Virus record (IMG/VR): IMGVR_UViG_3300005613_000063
Location: 1-62,563 of that record
Source: a virus
Length of the DNA stretch: 62,563 nucleotides
Strand: one strand, 5' to 3'
Of this stretch, positions 6,488 through 43,969 are shown in pieces. Each line of letters opens with the position of its first letter. The first letter of the stretch is position 1. The position numbers and the translations under genes are program-made. The notes under the pieces are model-generated. The model did no database searches, was not told where the DNA came from, and was given only the letters and a program-made list of their open reading frames with translations.

Positions 6488-6724
6488 GATATTTACTTTC
6501 CTATATTGATGAAATAAATGTGTCAAGAGTTAATCGATAAGTGTAAGTAACCTCTATGTATTTTTTTCTGTGTATCATTTAATGAGCAGAAAAGCTACAA
6601 TATATGTGCATGTGCGTAAAAAATTAAAGCAATGATTATATATGTTTGCAACGACGATATTGACGACCTTTGTGCGTAAGTTGTACTCATAAATAAATTT
6701 TCAAAAAATTTAATGAGGATTTTA
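6488..6724. promoter_or_regulatory. AT-rich divergent intergenic region between SNF2 helicase and RepA-like gene
   Basis: The 237 bp between two divergent replication genes is strongly AT-rich and should hold promoters for both. TTGACG near 6660 with a TACTCA-like element 18 bp downstream is the best plus-strand candidate, but it is weak. No repeat or operator is obvious. Confidence 0.4.
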
Positions 6725-7945
6725 ATGGCGGGCACAAATCACAAGCTCTACAGAATAGAAGATTTGCTCAGTCTCCAAGACGATGGGCGTCACTGGTTGG
6801 TCAAGAATATGCTTCCCAGAATTGGGCGGACGATTGTTTATGGGCATGGAGGCACTTACAAAACAACTATATTATTTGATTTAGCCATTGGCATTGCATC
6901 TGGCGGTGCGTTGCTTAGGCAATTTCCGATTGAGGAGCAAGGTCCTGTATTGATCGTATCGACGGAGAGTTCTAAATACGCAAACAGGGATAGAATACTT
7001 ACACACATTCGTGCAAGAGAAACGCAATCTCCTGAGCTTTTGCTTAGGGGCGGTCGGCCACCTATGCCAAATACAGAAGAGATGCCTATTTATTTTGGGC
7101 ACAAGGCTTTTGAGTTCGATGATATTAGAGAGCAAGAGGCCTTTAAAGAGCAATTAGAGATGATCAAGAAGGATACAGGCCGTTACCCTGTCTTCATTCT
7201 ACTCGACCCATTGGATAGTTTCATAGACGGGGACGAGAACTCTGCCAAGGAAACAAAACCATTCCGCAGGTTCTGCGATTCTGTTGTAGATGATTATGAG
7301 ACAAGTCTCTGCGTCATTCACCACTCGACAAAGAATCAAGAGAATCCATCAATACGTGGTTCAGGTGCTTGGCGTGGCTGGACAGACACAGCTCTGTTCT
7401 TTAAAAAGCAACGAGTCATTTATAATATGATGCAACTTCAATATGTGGATGTTGATTCTGATAAACAGAGGGATGGATCGGAGGGCAGGATATTTTCTGT
7501 GATACCAGAGTTCGACGCTGTTAGAAAGATGACGACGTTCACCTGCATGCAAGAAGGCATAGATCCAGATGTCTTGATGCAGAATGCAATACAACAACAG
7601 GTGCTGCAGCTCATTAGGAACTATGCACCTATTACGCAGAAAGAAATAATCAGCCTTACCCAAAGTACGCATAAGAGAATACGGGAGGCATTAGATGCAT
7701 TAAATGCTGATGGTGTTGTTGCGCAAGATGTTTCTGTCGAGAGGTCGACAAGTGCAGATGGTTCTAGGGCTAGAACAGTCCCAGCGTGGAGAGCAACAAC
7801 AAAAATTAGTCAAGTGGATGCAGCTGCTGCACTATTACAAGCTAAGAAGCGGAATGAAGAAGCAGATGAAGAAGGGTATAACGTGCAAGTAATCGGGCCG
7901 GTTCCGCTCGAAAGGCGTCATGCTATCCAAGAGATCTTTAATTGA
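6725..7945 (+). CDS. RepA-like AAA ATPase (hexameric helicase/primase-loader family)
   Basis: The 406-residue protein resembles the RSF1010 RepA-like AAA_25 ATPases common in phages: LVKNMLPRIGRTIVYGHGG with P-loop GHGGTYKTT near residue 42, VLIVSTESS, Walker B VFILLDPLDSF near residue 155, and SLCVIHHSTK with GSGAWRG near residue 205. The C-terminal ~100 residues contain a winged-helix-like segment (ITQKEIISLTQSTHKRIREA). The ATG at 6725 is chosen because GAGG sits 6 bases upstream; an upstream ATG at 6713 lacks this. It probably acts as a replicative or accessory helicase. Confidence 0.85.
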   Translation: MAGTNHKLYRIEDLLSLQDDGRHWLVKNMLPRIGRTIVYGHGGTYKTTILFDLAIGIASGGALLRQFPIEEQGPVLIVSTESSKYANRDRILTHIRARETQSPELLLRGGRPPMPNTEEMPIYFGHKAFEFDDIREQEAFKEQLEMIKKDTGRYPVFILLDPLDSFIDGDENSAKETKPFRRFCDSVVDDYETSLCVIHHSTKNQENPSIRGSGAWRGWTDTALFFKKQRVIYNMMQLQYVDVDSDKQRDGSEGRIFSVIPEFDAVRKMTTFTCMQEGIDPDVLMQNAIQQQVLQLIRNYAPITQKEIISLTQSTHKRIREALDALNADGVVAQDVSVERSTSADGSRARTVPAWRATTKISQVDAAAALLQAKKRNEEADEEGYNVQVIGPVPLERRHAIQEIFN

Positions 7946-8159
7946 TTTAGTCCTCCTCAGCTACTCCGATGATTTAGCATTCAAGCGATACGTGGATAGA
8001 ACCATAAATGATATCAAGGTGTATCATCCTGAATACTCCACCATGTCCTTTTTGGCTCTGCTAGATTTCATTTATGTAAATGATTCAGATAATTTAGCTA
8101 AAAGGCTTCTGGATAATTACGAGACGTTGAAGGGTAAAGAACCGTATTCAGTCAGTTGA
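7920..8159 (+). CDS. Small hypothetical helical protein after RepA-like gene
   Basis: This 79-residue, mainly helical protein starts 26 bases inside the end of the RepA-like gene and is likely co-translated with it. It has no recognised motif. It ends with a 12-base convergent overlap with the minus-strand gene at 8148-8627. Position suggests an accessory replication protein, which is inference only. Confidence 0.6.
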   Translation: MLSKRSLIDLVLLSYSDDLAFKRYVDRTINDIKVYHPEYSTMSFLALLDFIYVNDSDNLAKRLLDNYETLKGKEPYSVS

Positions 8160-8627
8160 TATGAGTTTCACAGTCAATACGCAAGGCAGGCTGTTGAGAC
8201 ATGCTTGGGCATCTTCATCCAATGTGAACTCTCGTAATAGTTTTATCCTCCTCTGAGAGAAGCCTTGTAACACGAGCCATTTATTGGCCACTTCATCGCT
8301 TTTTACTATTTGAAATAGTGCTTGTACAAGGCAACTTCTTGCTTGATAAATCTTATTAGCAGGCCGTGTGCCAGAAGTGTTTAAGACACGTTGAGGATAC
8401 ACTCTTAGTATAGAGCAAACGATCAAGACCAGCTGCTCCCAAACTCGCATGCTGAAGTCAAATGGGACAGGAACAAGGCCTGCAGTTGGATGATGAATGC
8501 AGGCTCCATGCTCAGTGGCTTGCCTGATATTATCATATGGCAATATAGTTTCATTGTCACCTTGAAGCTGCGCTAGTAAATCTGCGCAGTCATCTTGGAG
8601 TGATGTTTCGTTTTTGTTACAATTCAT
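8148..8627 (-). CDS. Hypothetical protein with possible DnaA domain IV-like helix-turn-helix
   Basis: The 159-residue protein is not firmly recognised. Residues about 65-130 (ILRVYPQRVLNTSGTRPANK, IYQARSCLVQALFQI, GFSQRRIKLL) follow the layout of DnaA domain IV: a variable first helix, a basic loop, an arginine-containing second helix and a final short HTH. Immediately upstream is an AT-rich element with the DnaA-box-like site TTGTCCACA, which makes an origin-binding role attractive. The N-terminal 60 residues hold no ATPase motif. It converges on the plus-strand gene ending at 8159. The ribosome binding site is weak. Confidence 0.6.
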   Translation of the reverse strand: MNCNKNETSLQDDCADLLAQLQGDNETILPYDNIRQATEHGACIHHPTAGLVPVPFDFSMRVWEQLVLIVCSILRVYPQRVLNTSGTRPANKIYQARSCLVQALFQIVKSDEVANKWLVLQGFSQRRIKLLREFTLDEDAQACLNSLPCVLTVKLISTD

Positions 8628-8632
8628 TCTAT

Positions 8633-8742
8633 ATATCCTATAGTATAGGGTGAATTATAAGAATTGTAAGAGTTGTCCACAGGAAAACAGATACAATTCC
8701 AGTACGTTGTTATAATTATGAGCTGGTATATCTAGCTATCAA
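8633..8742 (+). repeat. Origin-like inverted element, copy A, with DnaA-box-like site
   Basis: This AT-rich element matches, with few differences, the reverse complement of 14857-14978. Shared parts in order are GGTGAATTATAAGAATTGTAAGA, a DnaA-box-like TTGTCCACA at 8673-8681, CAGTACGTTGTTATAATTAT at 8702 onward, and GTATATC with CTATCA after that. The part ACGTTGTTATAATT at 8704-8717 recurs in direct orientation at 8774-8787, inside the 3' end of the UvrD gene. It may be an origin or regulatory element. Confidence 0.7.
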
Positions 8743-11700
8743 GCTTCCACCTTGTTTCCCTTATGATTCTCAGACGTTGTTATAATTTCAAGGTGGTATT
8801 GCACTATCAACAAAAAATTCGACACATGCTCATTTTCGCTTGTGTCGATTCCGCATGAATGAGTGAGTACACATTCCTTTTTGGCGCGTGTAATCGCCAC
8901 AAAGAGAAGTCTGAGTTCCTCATCTTCATCTTGTGCCTTGGAATGTGGGAAACGGCCTTCGACCATATCAATGACCCGCACGTTCTCCCATTCCAATCCT
9001 TTGGCTCTATGGATGGTGGATAAAGTAAGAGCTGGTTGTTGATTTCTTTCACTTAATTTGAGCCCACCGGGCTTGCTTGCGGCTGCGATGGCCCGCTCGA
9101 GTGAAGTAACATAGTCCAGAAATTCTGAGGTAGTTTGGAATAACTCTGCGATTCTCTGCAGTTCGTAAATAGCGGCGAGTCGATGGTCGTCTTCTCCTAA
9201 ACCCTCTTCTGCACGCAAAGCGGCAATGTAATCCGTGCGTTGCAATACCATTGCAAGCATCCTGCCTGGATTGTTCCTTGTGATACTTTTCGTACCACCC
9301 TCTTTTGCATCCAAAGCATCTTGTGCACCAGAAACTGCGATGCGATTCAATGAAGTAAGTAAGCTGATGAACTCTTTTAAATTGCGAGCGGAGGAAGGTG
9401 GTGCTTCATCAATTAATTCCTGCAACATATCGAGCATGGCTACATTTTCTTTCCTTGCCTCGCTCTCACACATATCTAAAAAAGGTCTACCAATGAAGCG
9501 GAAAGGTGCATTGACGATCCTGCGTAATGTCTTCGTGCTGCTGTCAGCACCTGAAGCAACTTTGATGTAAGCTAGAAGATCTTTAATCTCTTTGGAGGAG
9601 AAGAAGTTACCCGATGCCATCTTGCGATACGGTATGCGTTGTCTGATGCATTCAATCTCTGCAAGATTCAATGCCATGGATGTGCGAGACAATATAACGC
9701 AGCTATTTAGACCCAGTGGATGATCTACAGCTATCTCTATAGCCCATTTTAATGCACCAGCAGCTTCGCCCTCAGGTGTGCTATACCCCTTGATGACAGG
9801 TAGACTAGCAATCATGTCATCATCGCTGTTAACGCCACTTGGAATCATTTCACCGCAAAGATGCCAAGACTTGTCTGCAACGATGGCTGATCCCAAGGCA
9901 CATATACCAGGTGTGGAGCGATAGTTGTATGGTAGTGGTATTCGTTTAACGCAATCATGCTTAGCAAATTCCACAAAGAGCTTAGGCTCAGCATGTCTGA
10001 AACGGTAGATCGAATTGTGAGTAACAATGCCATTCGCAATATACAATTTATCATGTGATACATCTAATGAATACACAGAGCCTTCGAATTGCCTCGATGT
10101 ATTTCTTACTACAGGCTGCCAATTATTTCGTCCCTCTGGTAATGGGATAGACATTATCCCCTGCATTATATTAGCTGCATGTACAATGAAATATGTAGTG
10201 CGGCCTATTTTTGGTTCTGGCCATGGGTATAGAGGATAGGCACCATCTCTATGGTGTTCTTGCAAGCAGGTGAGTGCCCTTTCTGTATTCTCCCCATTAA
10301 TATTCATATCTTTGTATACTGCCTTTATATTATCCGCAGTGTACAGTGGATTAGTATTTGGTTTGGGCTGAAACATTATAGTAGGTAAGCCCCAATGAGC
10401 TGCAACATAACTTTCATAAATGCTAGCTTCATCTTTGCTGTAATGCACTCTTAGTATCCAGGCAGCATCTGCCTTTTCAATAAGAGCCCGCCGGCCTAAA
10501 TGAAAACTATTATCATTTTCTTTACGGTTTATGAACAATTTACACCAACCAACTCTGTATCCTAAATCTCGGCGATGCATCATGTATGTCACCCATACAC
10601 TTTTGTTGGTTCTATCTGTCCAACGACATAAGAATTTATGGCCTGGTGTACAATCCAAATATGTATCATCTACTTGAATACGATGCATAGAGCCACTATG
10701 CTTATGCACTGCTGTTTCTTTTACGACCCCTGTATGCACTGCATATTGTGCATGTCTATCCCATCGTGTGATAACATCACCCCTAACTAAATCTTCTATA
10801 TTGCGCCACTCCCTCGATCCTATTTGTATTTTAGTGCCGGCTGGATGACATTGTGATGGGTCCCCGTAGACATATAATGCGGTGTTCGCATCATCGCTAC
10901 CTGTGGGCAATTGCCTTGTTCTTGTTTCAATATAGCCACCAGCCCCTTTTGCTTCAGCGCCTTCTGGTCTTAGAATACAAGACTTCATGCCGGCCAGCAG
11001 CCTGGCGAGGTCCCATTGCACAGGATTAGAATCCTGCGCTTCGTCAACAATGATCATATCGTATTGTGAACGCCAATACTGCAGGTTGTCTGCGTTGCCA
11101 ATCAATAACATCCAAGTCCATAGCAGCATGTCATCAAAGTTATACAGCCCTTTAGTTACTCTACGGAAATCTAATTTTTTATATATAGTAGCAAGTTTGC
11201 TATTACCCAAACCAGATTCAGAATACCAACGTTTGCCCTCTATATATACAGAATCGGCTAGCCGCATGTTAACTTGAAAGGGGTCATTTTCTACAATGGC
11301 AGTACCGCGTGATTTACAAGCGGCAATAAAGCTCTGTACTCCCCCTCTATCCATGCCATGTCGGGGCAGGTCTCGACTTCTTTGCATCTCATTTAACAGT
11401 ATCTTTAGTTCTATGTCCATGCGATTGCGGTCATCTAATTTGAGCGCATTCATCATTGAAGGCACAGAAGCGTGTAATATTTTGTTGCATACAGAGTGAA
11501 TGGTGCCCACTGTAACATTAGGAATACCAATTGATAACAATCGAGAGCTCATCTCTCGAGCGGCATTGCGAGTGAACGTCATGGCTAAAATACGTGTCGG
11601 GTTTACTCCGTCGGCGACACAGCGTGCCAACAAACTAATTAATGCGCGAGTTTTACCAGCCCCAGGCACGCCTAAGATGGCAGCCTTGCCTCCATTGAGT

Positions 11701-11780
11701 TGAACAGCATCTAATTGAGCAGGATTTAATTGCAGGAATACCTGCTGCAACCCTTGAGGGTAGCGTGAAATATCTAACAT
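8739..11780 (-). CDS. UvrD/Rep-type superfamily 1 helicase containing an intein
   Basis: The 1013-residue precursor has SF1A helicase motifs: motif I AILGVPGAGKTRALISLLA near residue 35, Ia MTFTRNAAREM, motif II IIVDEAQDSNPVQW near residue 240, motif III split as YGDPSQ and SIYRFRHAEP, motif IV PLPYNYRSTP, and C-terminal STIHRAKGLEWENV and RLLFVAITRAKKE. A 279-residue intein interrupts motif III exactly before Ser, a common intein site. The mature helicase would be about 734 residues. The ATG at 11780 has AAGGAGG 9 bases upstream; an earlier ATG at 11804 does not. It probably unwinds DNA in replication or recombination with the adjacent nuclease. Confidence 0.93.
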   Translation of the reverse strand: MLDISRYPQGLQQVFLQLNPAQLDAVQLNGGKAAILGVPGAGKTRALISLLARCVADGVNPTRILAMTFTRNAAREMSSRLLSIGIPNVTVGTIHSVCNKILHASVPSMMNALKLDDRNRMDIELKILLNEMQRSRDLPRHGMDRGGVQSFIAACKSRGTAIVENDPFQVNMRLADSVYIEGKRWYSESGLGNSKLATIYKKLDFRRVTKGLYNFDDMLLWTWMLLIGNADNLQYWRSQYDMIIVDEAQDSNPVQWDLARLLAGMKSCILRPEGAEAKGAGGYIETRTRQLPTGSDDANTALYVYGDPSQCHPAGTKIQIGSREWRNIEDLVRGDVITRWDRHAQYAVHTGVVKETAVHKHSGSMHRIQVDDTYLDCTPGHKFLCRWTDRTNKSVWVTYMMHRRDLGYRVGWCKLFINRKENDNSFHLGRRALIEKADAAWILRVHYSKDEASIYESYVAAHWGLPTIMFQPKPNTNPLYTADNIKAVYKDMNINGENTERALTCLQEHHRDGAYPLYPWPEPKIGRTTYFIVHAANIMQGIMSIPLPEGRNNWQPVVRNTSRQFEGSVYSLDVSHDKLYIANGIVTHNSIYRFRHAEPKLFVEFAKHDCVKRIPLPYNYRSTPGICALGSAIVADKSWHLCGEMIPSGVNSDDDMIASLPVIKGYSTPEGEAAGALKWAIEIAVDHPLGLNSCVILSRTSMALNLAEIECIRQRIPYRKMASGNFFSSKEIKDLLAYIKVASGADSSTKTLRRIVNAPFRFIGRPFLDMCESEARKENVAMLDMLQELIDEAPPSSARNLKEFISLLTSLNRIAVSGAQDALDAKEGGTKSITRNNPGRMLAMVLQRTDYIAALRAEEGLGEDDHRLAAIYELQRIAELFQTTSEFLDYVTSLERAIAAASKPGGLKLSERNQQPALTLSTIHRAKGLEWENVRVIDMVEGRFPHSKAQDEDEELRLLFVAITRAKKECVLTHSCGIDTSENEHVSNFLLIVQYHLEIITTSENHKGNKVEA
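10014..10850 (-). other. Intein inserted in UvrD helicase motif III
   Basis: The 279-residue element begins with Cys (CHPAGTKIQIGS) and ends IANGIVTHN, followed by Ser of the extein, which are the residues needed for protein splicing. Block B resembles CTPGHKFL. About residues 115-235 form an inserted middle domain that lacks a recognisable LAGLIDADG or HNH motif but includes WILRVHYSKDEASIYESYVA and WGLPTIMF, a pattern I only loosely associate with inserts in other phage inteins. It may be a divergent or decayed homing domain. Confidence 0.9.
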
Positions 11781-11847
11781 TGAGATCCTCCTTGAGTAAT
11801 GCAATGCATGTATAGGATCGAATAAACTACATGCACGCTAGAATGTT

Positions 11848-14004
11848 TTAAGATGGGTAAGCTGCAGTCTCACTGTCGGCTGCAGCTACATTTTGTGTGG
11901 TAGGATTCCACCATTCTTTGGTAATCAGGGTTGTCAATGAGCCCCAAGTCCAAGAGCTTCTCACACCATCAAGATTCCAAATCAAGCCCTTCTCTGTAAT
12001 ACGAATATGAGCCGTTGCATTCTTAGCCCCGAGATGCGCTGCACCTTCTGCCGTAAGCGGTATATCAAATTCGGTACCGACTTCCCATGCATGCTGTATC
12101 TTCTCATTATAAGCAAACTTAACTTCTTTGGCAGACCAACCATGCCCCAACACCTCAGACATTTTGAAACCATCATACCTTTCAAAGTAATGAAATAGCG
12201 CACTGGCTACGAGCTGTTTCGCCCTATCCCGCATAACCTTAGCTGCAGCCCTCTTGTTTGCTGCATTCGTAATCTCTGCTTCAGTTTTACCAGCCTTCTG
12301 CTTGTATTCATTCGTGGGCTGCCGCAGGTTATCCAAATTTTTGATACGGTCTGCATCCACTGTGTACATATCATTCATGATTGCTTCTTCACCGCCTGGA
12401 GGGCAGTCACAAATGTCAAAATAGAAGCATGGTCCATATTGCCCAACGCAGGACGATGTGCACTTAGGCCACTTCTTCATATCATCTGCATCGTTCTTCA
12501 AACGCGTGTAGAAATCAATGGCAAGGGGACGTACTTCGTCTTGATAAAACTCTTCTACAGAGCGGAAGTCACAGGATGTATGGATGCGCTGCAGGTGCTT
12601 GTCTGGATCGATCCTCTTTGGCTTTGCAATCAAAGAGACAATGACACCTGCGAGTTCACCGAATTCAGCTGCTTCTGCATAAGTGTAGATGAGAGCATTC
12701 ATCAAGAATTGTCCATCGCGGCCATATCCTTTTGACAAATCATATGTAATTGCGCGGCAGGTTTTCCAGTCCACAACAAAACAGCCTCCAGGAACGGGTT
12801 GCCCTGGGGGTGTGCAAGGCGCCCCTGGCTTTCTTAAGCCCACAATTAAATCGTGACGACAGGTGAGTGGGATATGAACTGTCCTCCCCCCAATTTTTGC
12901 AGGTGGCATGAACCATGTTCCTTGATTTTCGATGCCACGTACATCCCAAGTGGCGGCTTCATCTCCTCCGAATTTTTGCAATTGGGCGTAGACAAGACGA
13001 CGAGCTTCCGCAGCAATATCCACTGCGCCGGCAGCTGCAACAACATCACATGGTTCGAATGTTCGCTGTCCACCTGTCCTATAATGCATCTCAAAACAGG
13101 CATGCACAAGGGTGCCTACGGCCAAGGCTGAGGACTTAAATTTCTTCTGCAGTCCTAAGACATGTGTAAAGTAAGCCTTTCTGGGGCACTGCTGGAGGGC
13201 CATGAGGTCATGCCAGGAGAAGCCTCCAGATGAAGGACCCCCTTCTAGACCTTCAACTTTGGATAGAACTTCATCGATATTAATTGCTGATTGGTCATCC
13301 ATCCCCGCTAAGTTCATGCCAGGCAAAAAGCTGGTGCTCACAGGTGCAAGTGGTGAAGATTGTGGCAGGTTCAACGGTGCTGCAGGTGGCGGTTGAACGG
13401 TAGGAGGTTGAGCAGGTTGCTGCTGTTCATTCACCAAAGTGACCTGCGGTGATTGCGGTTCAGGCTGAGGCTGCAGCTGCATCTGCTGCTCTTGTGACAC
13501 TTGTGACACTTGTGGCGCTTGTGGCGCTTGTTGCGCTTCAATTGCTGGTGGATTAATATGGGTAGTTAGTGCAGTTGATGGCGTGACTTTGATAGCGCTG
13601 CATGTAGTTTCATTAGGCACGGTAGGTCCTGGCACCTCTGTATTATGTATCTCCCGTACGGGGGTGGAAAACCCAGGACTGGGAATGTTTAATGGCAGCG
13701 CCGGCTCCATCGCTATTGCCATGTGCATTCCTTTGTCTTTGTCGTTGTTTGATGCCGATTTCTCAACGACGGGCGTTAAGGCAGCGGTAGGCACAATTAC
13801 TGCCTGACTGTCTTGACGCCCAATTTTTTGAAATTTCTCAGCGCAATTTAAGCAGACAGCTCGAACGGTTTCAGGAGAAGAGCCCAACATCAGTGATGGA
13901 TTGGGACAATTCTTGTTGGTGTATAACCGCTCAGCCGCAACATCTTGAAATAGGGGAAGCGAAAAGCCGCAAGAGCCTCTGATTTCTAGTTTCTTTTCAG
14001 TCAT
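11848..14004 (-). CDS. PD-(D/E)XK nuclease, RecB/Cas4-like, with long disordered linker
   Basis: This 718-residue protein starts with about 60 residues including paired cysteines (GSCGF, AVCLNCAEKF). A long P, Q and V-rich linker follows to about residue 250. The C-terminal ~450 residues are a RecB-family nuclease: QQCPRKAYFTHVLGLQ, LAVGTLVHACFEMH, the catalytic FVVDWKT motif, and a cysteine cluster KCTSSCVGQYGPCFYFDICD. That cluster, with the first CPRKAY Cys, could bind an iron-sulfur cluster as in Cas4/AddB. ATG at 14004 is preferred because CGGAG lies upstream. It lies between the SF2 half and UvrD, so a helicase-nuclease partnership in recombination is likely. Confidence 0.85.
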   Translation of the reverse strand: MTEKKLEIRGSCGFSLPLFQDVAAERLYTNKNCPNPSLMLGSSPETVRAVCLNCAEKFQKIGRQDSQAVIVPTAALTPVVEKSASNNDKDKGMHMAIAMEPALPLNIPSPGFSTPVREIHNTEVPGPTVPNETTCSAIKVTPSTALTTHINPPAIEAQQAPQAPQVSQVSQEQQMQLQPQPEPQSPQVTLVNEQQQPAQPPTVQPPPAAPLNLPQSSPLAPVSTSFLPGMNLAGMDDQSAINIDEVLSKVEGLEGGPSSGGFSWHDLMALQQCPRKAYFTHVLGLQKKFKSSALAVGTLVHACFEMHYRTGGQRTFEPCDVVAAAGAVDIAAEARRLVYAQLQKFGGDEAATWDVRGIENQGTWFMPPAKIGGRTVHIPLTCRHDLIVGLRKPGAPCTPPGQPVPGGCFVVDWKTCRAITYDLSKGYGRDGQFLMNALIYTYAEAAEFGELAGVIVSLIAKPKRIDPDKHLQRIHTSCDFRSVEEFYQDEVRPLAIDFYTRLKNDADDMKKWPKCTSSCVGQYGPCFYFDICDCPPGGEEAIMNDMYTVDADRIKNLDNLRQPTNEYKQKAGKTEAEITNAANKRAAAKVMRDRAKQLVASALFHYFERYDGFKMSEVLGHGWSAKEVKFAYNEKIQHAWEVGTEFDIPLTAEGAAHLGAKNATAHIRITEKGLIWNLDGVRSSWTWGSLTTLITKEWWNPTTQNVAAADSETAAYPS

Positions 14005-14067
14005 TTCTGAACTCCGTGGTAAAAATGTGGTAAGTGCAGTAACTACTACCAGGGAATTCAAGGAACA

Positions 14068-14841
14068 TCAACTACCACATTGAGAAATTGCACAAAGGAT
14101 AAAGATGATGAGGACAGGCCATTGCAGCCATGCTGTGAGTTCATCACGCTGCTCACAGAAAATTTCTACAGGTGACATGTCAACTTGCTGTAATTGTTCT
14201 TGTTTCTTTCCGTTAGCAGAACCACTGTAATTACAATCAGTTGACTTTCCCGCTCGAGCACCACGTTTCGTGCCAGACTTTGAACTACTTAATATCTTAT
14301 CTAAATCGGGATCACAGAATGTCGCATTTTCGGCAGCTACTTTTGTCCCCGAGTCATCGCAGATGAATCCGGAGATGTCGTAGCCACCGGCAACATAATT
14401 CTTATATCGTGCTTCGAGGTGCTTATCGAAATTAGAGACAGCGACATCATAGATAGTGAAGTCATCTTTATCAGAAGCTAACCTTGTCCCACGACCAGAC
14501 TCTTGCTTCAATCCAATAGGGGCGGAACCACCGGCAGCCCGCACAACGGACTTCAAATTTGGCAAGTCTATCCCGGTTGCCCATACTGAGGTGGCCACAA
14601 CACCAGAAATTTTGCCAGCAACGAAGTCATCGGCAATGCGCTGACGCTCGTCATCTGGCATGCCACCATGCACATGCAAAACAGTTGTTGATAACTCTGT
14701 AGATAGTGCAGTAGCTAAAGCTTCAGTGGAATCTCGCCGCTTAACGAAGCAAACAAATGGCCAAGCTATTTCATTTTCGGAGAAAGCTCCGAGTACATAT
14801 GAAACTATCAACTCAGAATTATAACATGTATCTGATTTCAT
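14068..14841 (-). CDS. SF2 helicase, C-terminal RecA2 half (split gene)
   Basis: The 257-residue protein contains only the second RecA domain: WPFVCFVKRRDS (motif IV), VLHVHGGMPDDERQRIADDF, GVVATSVWATGIDLPNLK (motif V) and QESGRGTRL (motif VI). It lacks motifs I-III, which are encoded 232 bp upstream in the gene at 15074-15871. The ATG at 14841 has a perfect AGGAGG, so it is made as a separate protein. The C-terminus has a Ser/Gly/Lys-rich linker and a hydrophobic end. The two halves could assemble into one UvsW-like helicase. Confidence 0.83.
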   Translation of the reverse strand: MKSDTCYNSELIVSYVLGAFSENEIAWPFVCFVKRRDSTEALATALSTELSTTVLHVHGGMPDDERQRIADDFVAGKISGVVATSVWATGIDLPNLKSVVRAAGGSAPIGLKQESGRGTRLASDKDDFTIYDVAVSNFDKHLEARYKNYVAGGYDISGFICDDSGTKVAAENATFCDPDLDKILSSSKSGTKRGARAGKSTDCNYSGSANGKKQEQLQQVDMSPVEIFCEQRDELTAWLQWPVLIIFILCAISQCGS

Positions 14842-14856
14842 TATATAAACCTCCTG

Positions 14857-14991
14857 CCTACCTGATAGTTTGATATACGTCGCTATAATTATAACAACGT
14901 ACTGTAATTACAAACAAATAGCTGTGGATAAGTCTTACAATTCTTATAATTCACCGTGTATTAATATAGGGGCATAGGAGAATTGTAAGAA
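14857..14991 (-). repeat. Origin-like inverted element, copy B, between SF2 helicase halves
   Basis: This element contains a consensus DnaA box TTATCCACA (minus strand, 14931-14923) and matches copy A at 8633-8742 in opposite orientation. The shared 18-mer ending in ACGTAC is identical (14884-14901). The 12-mer AGAATTGTAAGA occurs here as an inverted pair (14933-14944 and 14979-14990) and once in copy A. The sequence is AT-rich and non-coding in every frame I checked. An origin or regulatory role is inferred. Confidence 0.7.
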
Positions 14992-15070: not shown

Positions 15071-15103
15071 TTATCAACAGAAGACCACTTTTCCTGTTGA
15101 TAA
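15071..15103. repeat. 10-bp inverted repeat at the end of the SF2 N-terminal half
   Basis: TTATCAACAG at 15071-15080 is the exact reverse complement of CTGTTGATAA at 15094-15103, with a 13-base loop. It covers the last codons of the SF2 N-terminal half. Each arm is one base away from a DnaA box (TTATCAACA versus TTATCCACA). It has no U-run, so it is not a clear terminator. Confidence 0.6.
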
Positions 15104-15871
15104 AAATCCCGCTGAAGTTAAATCTCGAACTCCAACACGGTAGATAACGGGTCCAAGCAGACCTACAACCAAAGGGTTTTTATCATCGGTTCGATCAAGG
15201 GGCGTGCCAGACAATCCATATCGCAGACCTCCTCTGAAACATGCCATGCATTGTGCCCGAGTGCGCGCCGATATGCCATGGCATTCATCAATGATAATCC
15301 CAGCATAGTCAGCACTCTGAAAATCCCTTTGGTTCCAACCAACAGATGTGATAAGACTAGTATTAGCCTTGAGTTGTGTGGATAGCGTTCGAAATGATGT
15401 AGCAGATTGTGAGACCAGGTCCCGACCATAAACGCAATAGAGCCAGCGTCCTCCTCCTGCTGCATAAGCGAGACCCCAGGCGACCCGAGTCTTACCCGCT
15501 CCAGTTCCTAGCTCGATGATACCTCGGCCCAGCGGTGCTGTCAGGGCGGCCCTGATAGAGGCAATTTGATAGTCTCTCCAACCCTCTTGTTCCAAAGCTG
15601 TCAAGCGCAACTCTAATCCATAATCGCCAACGACATCATACCCAACAGGCCAGTCATGGTCTGGCCAGGCGACGGGCAGCAGGCCAGCCAAACATTTTAT
15701 CAGCCCTGCAGATCTAATGAAGGGAGGTACGCCACGCAATTTAGTGCGGCCCGACACTTGTCTAGAGGCATTTTCTAGTGTATATTCAATGCTATCGAGA
15801 CCAGCTTCTGCCCCTTTAAATTCTGCCCAGATGCTACATGCATCTAACGAAACTGAAACACGGTGGTCCAT
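15074..15871 (-). CDS. SF2 helicase, N-terminal RecA1 half (split gene)
   Basis: The 265-residue protein has motif I ELGTGAGKTRVAWG near residue 130, motif II GIIIDECHGIS near residue 205 and motif III YGLSGTPLDR, preceded by a Q-like WRDYQIASIRAAL segment. It stops after VGVRDLTSAGFLSTGK, where a joined helicase would pass into RecA2. The continuation is the gene at 14068-14841. The start (ATG at 15871 or 15874) follows AGGAG and lies head to head with the start of the terminase small subunit gene. It probably works together with the other half. Confidence 0.83.
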   Translation of the reverse strand: MDHRVSVSLDACSIWAEFKGAEAGLDSIEYTLENASRQVSGRTKLRGVPPFIRSAGLIKCLAGLLPVAWPDHDWPVGYDVVGDYGLELRLTALEQEGWRDYQIASIRAALTAPLGRGIIELGTGAGKTRVAWGLAYAAGGGRWLYCVYGRDLVSQSATSFRTLSTQLKANTSLITSVGWNQRDFQSADYAGIIIDECHGISARTRAQCMACFRGGLRYGLSGTPLDRTDDKNPLVVGLLGPVIYRVGVRDLTSAGFLSTGKVVFC

Positions 15872-15872
15872 C

Positions 15873-16892
15873 ATGGCTCCTAAAATCAGCAACGGCATCC
15901 TTCCTCCAGAAATAGAAGAAGTGCACGATTATATTGAGGAAAGGCGTAGCCAAGTGCTAAAAGCCACGCCTCAAACTTATGAAGGACTACCGCCAATCAC
16001 AGGGATAAATCCTCCTGGCTACAGAATTCCAGAATCAAAAAAAGCACGGGCAGAACGAATCAAGACAGAAAAGGAAGCGCAATACATCATTCATCCACCC
16101 AAACAAGAAGATAGGCATTACGAAATTGAACAAGGATTAACTAAAGACAGTTGGCAAAAAGTATTCAATGCGTTTGCCGTAACGGGCAAGCCGACTATCA
16201 TTTCACAAGCAACAGACATACCCGCCAAGGCAGTCAAACACATACTCGATCATGGCATCTTAAGATTAGGGCTACCCAGCATTAAGCAACACAGCATCGA
16301 TCAAGCCCAACTTAATCTTGACATACAAGAGACAAAAGAAAAGCACAAAAAGAAACTTATGCAGAGCGATGTCACCGAGGCCATCCAAAAGCGAGCAACG
16401 CAGGAAGCTAGTTCGGCAAAGCTCATGCTCGATCAAACAATGGAAGTTGGAACCATCGTTGGTGGTTATGTCAAAGCCTTCTTCAATACGTTAAAGAAAG
16501 GTGACGCTACGCTGGCAATACCGGAACGGGTTGATTTAGATACCTTGGAAAATCTTACGAAGGTACTAGACTCATATACTAAATCAATGGAACGTGCAGT
16601 GAAGCTCGTGAATCTAACGCAGGGCAAACCAACAGAACGAGTTGAGCATCAAATCGGTGCTATGCTAGCAGTCTGCACAACAAGAGAGCTTGAAGAAGCA
16701 CAAAACTCTGGCAAGTTACCTGCGAGGCTCACATCCAGATTAGGAACCGCAGAACCAATGAAAGAAGGAGACAGCAATATCATTGAAGCACATGCCGTAG
16801 AGATACAAAAAAACACAAGCAACAATGACGAAACACCAGAGTGGCTCACAAGTATAAAACCCCCAGAGGGGGAAAGCACAGAAGATGAATGA
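15873..16892 (+). CDS. Putative terminase small subunit
   Basis: The 339-residue hydrophilic protein lies directly upstream of and overlaps the large terminase gene (ATGAATGA). It has a helix-turn-helix-like segment (WQKVFNAFAVTGKPTII, DIPAKAVKHILDHGI) near residues 95-135, then helical, coiled-coil-prone regions and an acidic tail. Recognition of packaging DNA by such a subunit is typical. The sequence itself is not diagnostic, so the call relies on position plus the HTH. The start at 15873 shares bases with the start codons of the divergent SF2 gene. Confidence 0.62.
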   Translation: MAPKISNGILPPEIEEVHDYIEERRSQVLKATPQTYEGLPPITGINPPGYRIPESKKARAERIKTEKEAQYIIHPPKQEDRHYEIEQGLTKDSWQKVFNAFAVTGKPTIISQATDIPAKAVKHILDHGILRLGLPSIKQHSIDQAQLNLDIQETKEKHKKKLMQSDVTEAIQKRATQEASSAKLMLDQTMEVGTIVGGYVKAFFNTLKKGDATLAIPERVDLDTLENLTKVLDSYTKSMERAVKLVNLTQGKPTERVEHQIGAMLAVCTTRELEEAQNSGKLPARLTSRLGTAEPMKEGDSNIIEAHAVEIQKNTSNNDETPEWLTSIKPPEGESTEDE

Positions 16893-28379: not shown

Positions 28380-28966
28380 CTATGAACTGGCAGGAGTCAG
28401 ACGCTAGATGTTTAGCTATTCGATGATAGCTCATTGCGTGCTTACGATTCTTACGATTCATGCGAATCTCTCCATGGTCTAGGTGTTTAGAAAAATGACC
28501 GTTCAGTCATAATTCGGCTATACTTAGGATTGAGTGCTTTTAGTTGAGTTTGTATCACAAACCCTTTACATACCAATGCCTAAGTATTGAGAATCTTTCA
28601 TGATTCCTATAAAGTTTACATAATCCAGTTAGTCGGCACTCACTTATTATCAGTGAGAAATCTGTGCCAACATCTGAGTTTCAGACCCTGTTTATGTCAG
28701 ATATAACCCCAGAAAACCCGGAAAACCGCGGTGGAAGTGGGCGTGTTTTCCCTCCTTATATCCCGATATTGGCGTATTTCACCACGAAATATTTTTGCGG
28801 CTTTCCACCCAAAAATTGGTGGCCGGCTTAAGTTGCGGCTTAGTGGTAGCGCCGCCGCGCCCGCGCACGTGCCCGCGTTTCGTCTGCAACCCCCCGTACG
28901 TACTAGGGAATTTTCACTGTGTATCTTTGACTACAAATACACACTACCCTACATGTAACCCCTGGA

Positions 28967-43778: not shown

Positions 43779-43969
43779 CGGCTGGTCCCTCACTTTTTGT
43801 TTTGTTATATGTTCATATTGACATATACGGCTATCAAGTCAAGTGTCACATGCACAATTTTTGTGCATTTTATGCACATTTTTTTGCAACAAAATTGGTG
43901 ACGGGGATTGACATGTAACAAAATCATTGAGATACATCAAGTTTGAAATATATTTTCAGGAGTGTTTCT
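43779..43969. promoter_or_regulatory. Divergent promoter region with TGCACA palindromes
   Basis: The region has TGCACAATTTTTGTGCA (43851-43867) and a third half-site TGCACA at 43873-43878. A plus-strand promoter-like TTGACA (43908-43913) with 17-bp spacing to GATACA is downstream. On the minus strand TTGACT lies near 43838. It separates early minus genes from late plus genes, so it may be the main switch. Confidence 0.55.

Follow-up and report, generated by a model that had tools for sequence, protein, structure and literature searches.

The DNA analyzed here, hereafter the window, is the whole 62,563-base virus record IMGVR_UViG_3300005613_000063, in which a terminal repeat was looked for and none was found. 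No close relative of the window was present among the phage records searched, an exact 21-mer search of IMG/VR returned no match, single-protein searches with HelC and UvrD confirmed no relative, and the genome collection searched held no useful one; the window is a phage contig of an undescribed lineage. At the locus of interest, genes for an SF2 helicase in two halves (HelN and HelC), a PD-(D/E)XK nuclease-like protein, a UvrD-like helicase, and a small protein termed g8148 follow one another on the minus strand, and the gene of a RepA-like ATPase comes next on the plus strand (Table 1). HelC carries its own Shine-Dalgarno sequence, AGGAGG, as seen by sequence inspection. Two related elements border the HelC-nuclease-UvrD block: E1 runs from the UvrD stop codon to a point 13 nt short of the g8148 start codon, and E2 separates HelN from HelC, i.e., the two halves of the helicase.

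Table 1. Genes, inverted arms, and sequence boxes at the locus, in window coordinates.
Feature	Position	Strand	Basis
RepA-like AAA_25 ATPase, putative replicative helicase adjoining g8148	6713-7945	+	Pfam AAA_25
g8148, 159 aa, fold predicted to resemble DnaA-DBD (domain IV); candidate E1/E2 binder	8148-8627	-	Two AlphaFold2 models
E1, 102-bp arm between UvrD stop and g8148 start	8641-8742	- (P-box to Q-box direction)	Self-comparison, self-BLAST
E1 core: P-box TAACAACG, 34 nt, Q-box CTTACAATTC	8661-8712	-	Pattern common to relatives, 0 mismatches; PWM rank 1 in window
DnaA-box-like TTGTCCACA in E1	8673-8681	+	DnaA-box scan
UvrD-like helicase with intein	8739-11804	-	Pfam UvrD-helicase, UvrD_C, Intein_splicing
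Extra P-type box ACGTTGTTATAATT within UvrD 3' end	8774-8787	+	Box search
PD-(D/E)XK nuclease-like protein	11848-14061	-	Pfam PDDEXK_1
HelC, C-terminal half of SF2 helicase, first gene of flanked operon	14068-14841	-	Pfam Helicase_C
E2, 102-bp arm between HelN and HelC	14862-14963	+ (inverted relative to E1)	Self-comparison, self-BLAST
Near-palindromic P-box ACGTCGCTATAATTATAACAACGT in E2	14877-14900		Repeat and box search
E2 core: P-box TAACAACG, 34 nt, Q-box CTTACAATTC	14892-14943	+	Relatives' pattern; PWM rank 2 in window
Exact DnaA box TTATCCACA in E2	14923-14931	-	DnaA-box scan
Extra Q-type box AGAATTGTAAGA, inverted versus E2's copy	14979-14990	+	Box search
HelN, N-terminal half of SF2 helicase	15074-15898	-	Pfam ResIII

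The initial annotation of this DNA had described two AT-rich copies that face each other and share a nearly identical 18-mer and 23-mer, and both statements held up. Compared with the reverse complement of E2, E1 was identical at 77 of 102 positions in an ungapped alignment, with exact matches of 23 nt (8649-8671) and 20 nt (8700-8719), and the two arms are separated by 6,119 bp. The repeat was recovered by self-BLAST of the window at E=7e-15, making it the strongest one present when repeats internal to tail-protein genes and short local repeats are left aside, and shuffling both intergenic regions 200 times never reached the score of the pair. The AT content of the arms, 68% and 71%, compares with 56% for the window, other intergenic regions being AT-rich too. 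Conservation between the arms is concentrated in tandem 9-mers that include the Q-box CTTACAATTC, a DnaA-box-like TTRTCCACAG, the P-box ACGTTGTTATAATT, and a block containing CTATCA, with spacers between these blocks that have diverged in sequence and kept their length. In both arms, a sigma70-like promoter (10/12) lies at a homologous place and points outward.

The claim that two sequences occur three times each, one of them once in the UvrD 3' end, was likewise confirmed, with AGAATTGTAAGA located at 8660 (+), 14933 (-), and 14979 (+) and ACGTTGTTATAATT at 8704 (+), 8774 (+, in the UvrD 3' end), and 14887 (-). Further box copies flank the arms at 8774, 14815-14826, and 14979, and TTACAATTC lies beyond the other side of E1 at 8617-8625. 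As to DnaA-box sites in the arms, E2 contains the exact box TTATCCACA and E1 the similar TTGTCCACA; one-mismatch DnaA boxes as such are no commoner in the window than expected from shuffles (70 versus 75.6). Elsewhere in the window, an intergenic tandem of CTTACGATTC and TTACGATTC at 28440-28460, with no P-box at 42 nt, is reminiscent of the Q-box tandems in E1/E2. An AT-rich gap between divergent gene blocks (43794-43943), located where cumulative GC skew reaches its minimum, contains TTATGCACA and repeated GTGCA(T) and is a candidate origin or regulatory region.

Relatives were identified by protein alignments, which led from UvrD to loci L012, L013, L026, L017, and L023, from the PDDEXK protein to L089 and L090, and from RepA to L096 and L097; L090 and L012 represent the same phage, as their g8148 proteins are identical, and were counted once. 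Three distant relatives, L013, L089, and L090, share approximately 40% protein identity with the window, and each carries an inverted pair at the same two borders, upstream of HelC and in the gap between UvrD and the g8148 homologue. The arms agree at 25 of 32 positions in L013 (17 of 19 in the core) and 29 of 32 in L089, and those of L090 share an identical 13-mer; by ungapped local score, shuffles reached the score of the pair in 0 of 200 trials for L013 and for L089 and in 2 of 200 for L090. Whole-contig searches with the L013 and L089 arms returned just these two copies each, and the arm sequences differ from phage to phage. Altogether, the inverted pair is real, conserved, and probably functional, and an origin by chance is disfavored.

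The break in the helicase falls at one and the same position in the window, L013, and L090, L089 has HelC with no HelN in front of it, and L017 and L023 encode the helicase as one fused ORF. Neither the element nor a g8148 homologue was found in the stretches of L017 and L023 examined. In L026, the Q-box lies farther from the start, at about 58 nt. The full element was not found in L096, where a Q-like CTTACGTTCC follows UvrD and the contig stops short of the HelC side. In L097, the RepA-like gene is present, with no UvrD downstream.

Several side observations were made on these loci. The split falls between the two RecA-like halves of the helicase in the lineage of the window, L013, L090, and L089, the halves being fused in L017 and L023, and the split helicase was searched for RNA elements, group I introns included, with no match. 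HelC proteins end in a hydrophobic segment that is probably membrane-spanning. UvrD inteins are present in the window (Table 1), in L096, and in L023 (9183-12359), the L023 insertion being large and differently placed. At L096:12088-14682, a 631-aa TnpB/Cas12-like ORF with a weak match to IS607 TnpB, whose N-terminus we take to resemble that of Cas12m, adjoins a CRISPR-like array of 9 to 10 repeats of approximately 36 nt with a period of mostly 71 to 76 nt.

Common to the copies is a grammar consisting of TAACAMGT (P-box), 34 nt, and CTTACNNNTC (Q-box), with a DnaA-box-like stretch just before the Q-box. When the copies were set on the Q-box without gaps, TAACA fell at -42, AT at -27, G/A at -8/-6, CTTAC at 0, and C at +9; six E1-type copies additionally share AATCA at -97 to -99, and the conserved columns of E1-type copies between -125 and -51 beat 500 of 500 random registers. 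E1-type copies occupy partly orthologous positions, so the similarity among them is not independent, whereas that between E1 and E2 within each genome is. Genome-wide matches to the grammar at 0 to 1 mismatches are confined to E1 and E2 in three cases, the window and the contigs of L089 and L090; in the L013 genome, the search returned E1, E2 (2 mismatches), and a third copy (L113:3931-4015), which contains a full palindrome, TAACAAGTACTTGTTA, and lies upstream of a 188-aa gene with no homologue in the loci examined. When a PWM was built with the genome in question left out, E1 and E2 took the top two ranks in the window, L089, and L090; their lead over the next site in the window was small (18.0 versus 16.6). 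For L013, such a PWM found E1 and the third copy, with E2 in fifth rank.

The distances from these elements to neighboring start codons were also conserved. The end of the Q-box lies 33 nt from the ATG of g8148 in the window and 34, 35, and 35 nt from that of its homologue in L089, L013, and L090, respectively, and the third copy in L013 places it 33 nt upstream of the ATG of the 188-aa gene. On the HelC side, the start of the reversed P-box is 25 nt from the HelC ATG in L089, L013, and L090 and 59 nt in the window. Distances of this kind would be expected of sites that control genes. On the Q side of E2, there is no conserved start codon, and its own direction runs antisense into HelN or an upstream gene; sigma70-like hexamers do not occur at the same place in the relatives.

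We modeled the L012 homologue of g8148 (pLDDT 81) and the window protein itself (pLDDT 68, core mostly 81 to 91) with AlphaFold2, the two models being not fully independent, as they drew on one shared, reordered five-sequence alignment. Foldseek matched both to the DNA-binding domain (domain IV) of DnaA, with probabilities (L012 homologue and window protein, respectively) of 0.99 and 0.98 for PDB 3pvp and 0.84 and 0.90 for 1j1v and TM-scores by target of 0.60 to 0.67 at an E value of about 0.2; no other fold was of comparable probability. Sequence profiles of g8148 gave no match in Pfam or NCBIfam, and a profile search of the PDB found no DnaA. The AAA+ ATPase domain of full DnaA is absent from g8148, which has a small, all-helical fold. 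Because of the E value and because the sequence profiles find nothing, the predicted resemblance to the DnaA DNA-binding domain (DBD) is a good but not decisive structural lead.

We propose, with a little better than an even chance of being right, that E1 and E2 are co-evolving operator/promoter sites of a DnaA-DBD-like protein, which would control its own gene and the HelC-nuclease-UvrD operon. The two arms would be copies of one multi-box element bound by a phage-specific protein, with E1 controlling transcription of g8148 and E2 that of the operon. The likeliest binder is g8148 itself, in which case E1 would serve autoregulation and E2 would be a second target; less likely, the binder is another phage protein. 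Protein and sites may change jointly between phages, such that the sequence turns over and the layout stays. We infer that g8148 binds the sites and that binding has a transcriptional outcome, which may be activation or repression at either site. The initial annotation had offered regulatory sites as one of three options, next to two replication origins and a recombination-based inversion system; regulatory sites are the best supported of these because start-codon distances are fixed in several phages and an unrelated gene is preceded by an extra copy.

The second option drew partial support. E1 and E2 could be paired origins, or an origin and a fork barrier, with g8148 as the initiator working with the RepA-like helicase, a possibility that we regard as rather unlikely. 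The predicted DnaA-DBD-like protein encoded beside E1, the RepA-like helicase gene next door, the DnaA box, the AT-rich arms, and the repeated boxes in fixed register would all suit origins, and phage SPP1 may offer a precedent by analogy: gp38 binds its two similarly organized origins, one of which lies within the initiator gene (PMC6316719), and its replication fork is thought to stall at oriR-bound gp38 (PMC3485210). However, the fixed start-codon distances and the extra L013 copy before an unrelated gene fit gene control better, and a spacing of 6 kb between two initiator sites would be unusual. GC skew, a check suggested at the outset and a weak test in phages, revealed no origin-like change: in L013, the coding-strand 4-fold GC skew was -0.123 ahead of the sites, -0.145 between them, and -0.130 beyond them, while in the window the skew at 4-fold sites shifts at the elements with a terminus-like sign and the cumulative minimum lies near 44 kb. 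A broader scheme, which we consider doubtful, would unite both functions: g8148 would be a stand-alone DnaA-DBD-like initiator, and the inverted elements would act as promoters and as an origin and fork barrier around a recombination operon, coupling replication start, fork arrest, and recombination-gene expression, with sequence and protein co-evolving fast and the geometry (42-bp pitch, 25 and 33 to 35 nt) kept.

The remaining explanations account for the inverted orientation itself. If the arms paired as RNA in one transcript, a long stem would form around the HelC-nuclease-UvrD message, for RNase III-type processing or translational control; the orientation is inverted in four of four phages, and the computed duplex energy is far below that of shuffles in three (z of -7 to -15). 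We nevertheless think this very improbable, since the differences between the arms show no wobble bias (10 sense wobbles, 7 antisense wobbles, and 18 transversions in three phages, i.e., no G-U preference); the L090 sense duplex is no better than shuffles (z of -1.1), the boxes recur at fixed spacing, E1-type copies gave no consensus RNA fold, and the third copy in L013 stands alone. Rfam returned no match at gathering scores; weaker matches on E2, to a hairpin resembling unrelated microRNA families, were rejected. Even less probable is that the helicase gene was split by a transposon or small mobile element whose ends are the arms. E2 does lie exactly between the two helicase halves, which L017 and L023 encode in fused form, but both copies and the split recur at unchanged positions in diverged phages whose arm sequences differ, whereas a mobile element would be expected to change its location and retain its sequence, and no transposase was found by Pfam among the proteins scanned in the flanked segment. 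Inversion of the 6.1-kb segment by a recombinase, as flanking inverted repeats might suggest and as the initial annotation had envisaged, is scarcely credible because the arms have diverged and the orientation is constant. Rather than identical recombination sites, the arms are only 75% identical in the window (77/102), and the cores are unequal in L013 and L089 (25/32 and 29/32 over the arms); segment orientation and gene order are the same in the window, L013, L089, and L090, inversion would rebuild no gene, and no recombinase domain was detected by Pfam in the nine proteins scanned at 2.7 to 15.9 kb.

Under the operator/promoter reading, a place and geometry conserved at approximately 40% protein identity, with the sequence replaced, would mark a control circuit that this undescribed lineage of phages has conserved. 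A within-genome repeat can be read as functional though neither copy readily aligns between genomes, and with a candidate protein, g8148, and its sites named, binding, autoregulation, and origin activity are directly testable.

Compared with known systems, the locus is linked to DnaA domain IV (PDB 3pvp and 1j1v) by the predicted g8148 fold and by the DnaA-box-like sequence in the elements, but g8148 proteins, at 156 to 180 aa, have no room for AAA+ and are unmatched by Pfam and NCBIfam models. Hin and Gin are site-specific inversion systems and likewise have inverted repeats around a gene block; here, in contrast, the arms have diverged, no recombinase was found among the proteins scanned, and no orientation variants were seen in the four phages. 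With SPP1 oriL/oriR and gp38 (G38P), the locus shares two distant, similar AT-rich repeat regions, one of them at the (here putative) initiator gene, and an early region of initiator, helicase, and recombination genes (PMC6316719, PMC3485210). There are three such distant regions with shared repeats in the L013 genome and two each in the window and the L089 and L090 contigs, initiator binding being putative. Unlike in SPP1, the copies are 6 kb apart, are inverted, flank one operon, and keep fixed start-codon distances, the candidate binder is DnaA-DBD-like, and origin function is putative. Upstream of plasmid rep genes lie autoregulated operators with repeated boxes, and E1 resembles these in that its repeated boxes immediately precede the gene encoding the presumed binder, beside a RepA-like helicase gene; it differs in that P and Q form no tandem iteron array and in having a second, inverted copy for which control of another operon is proposed.
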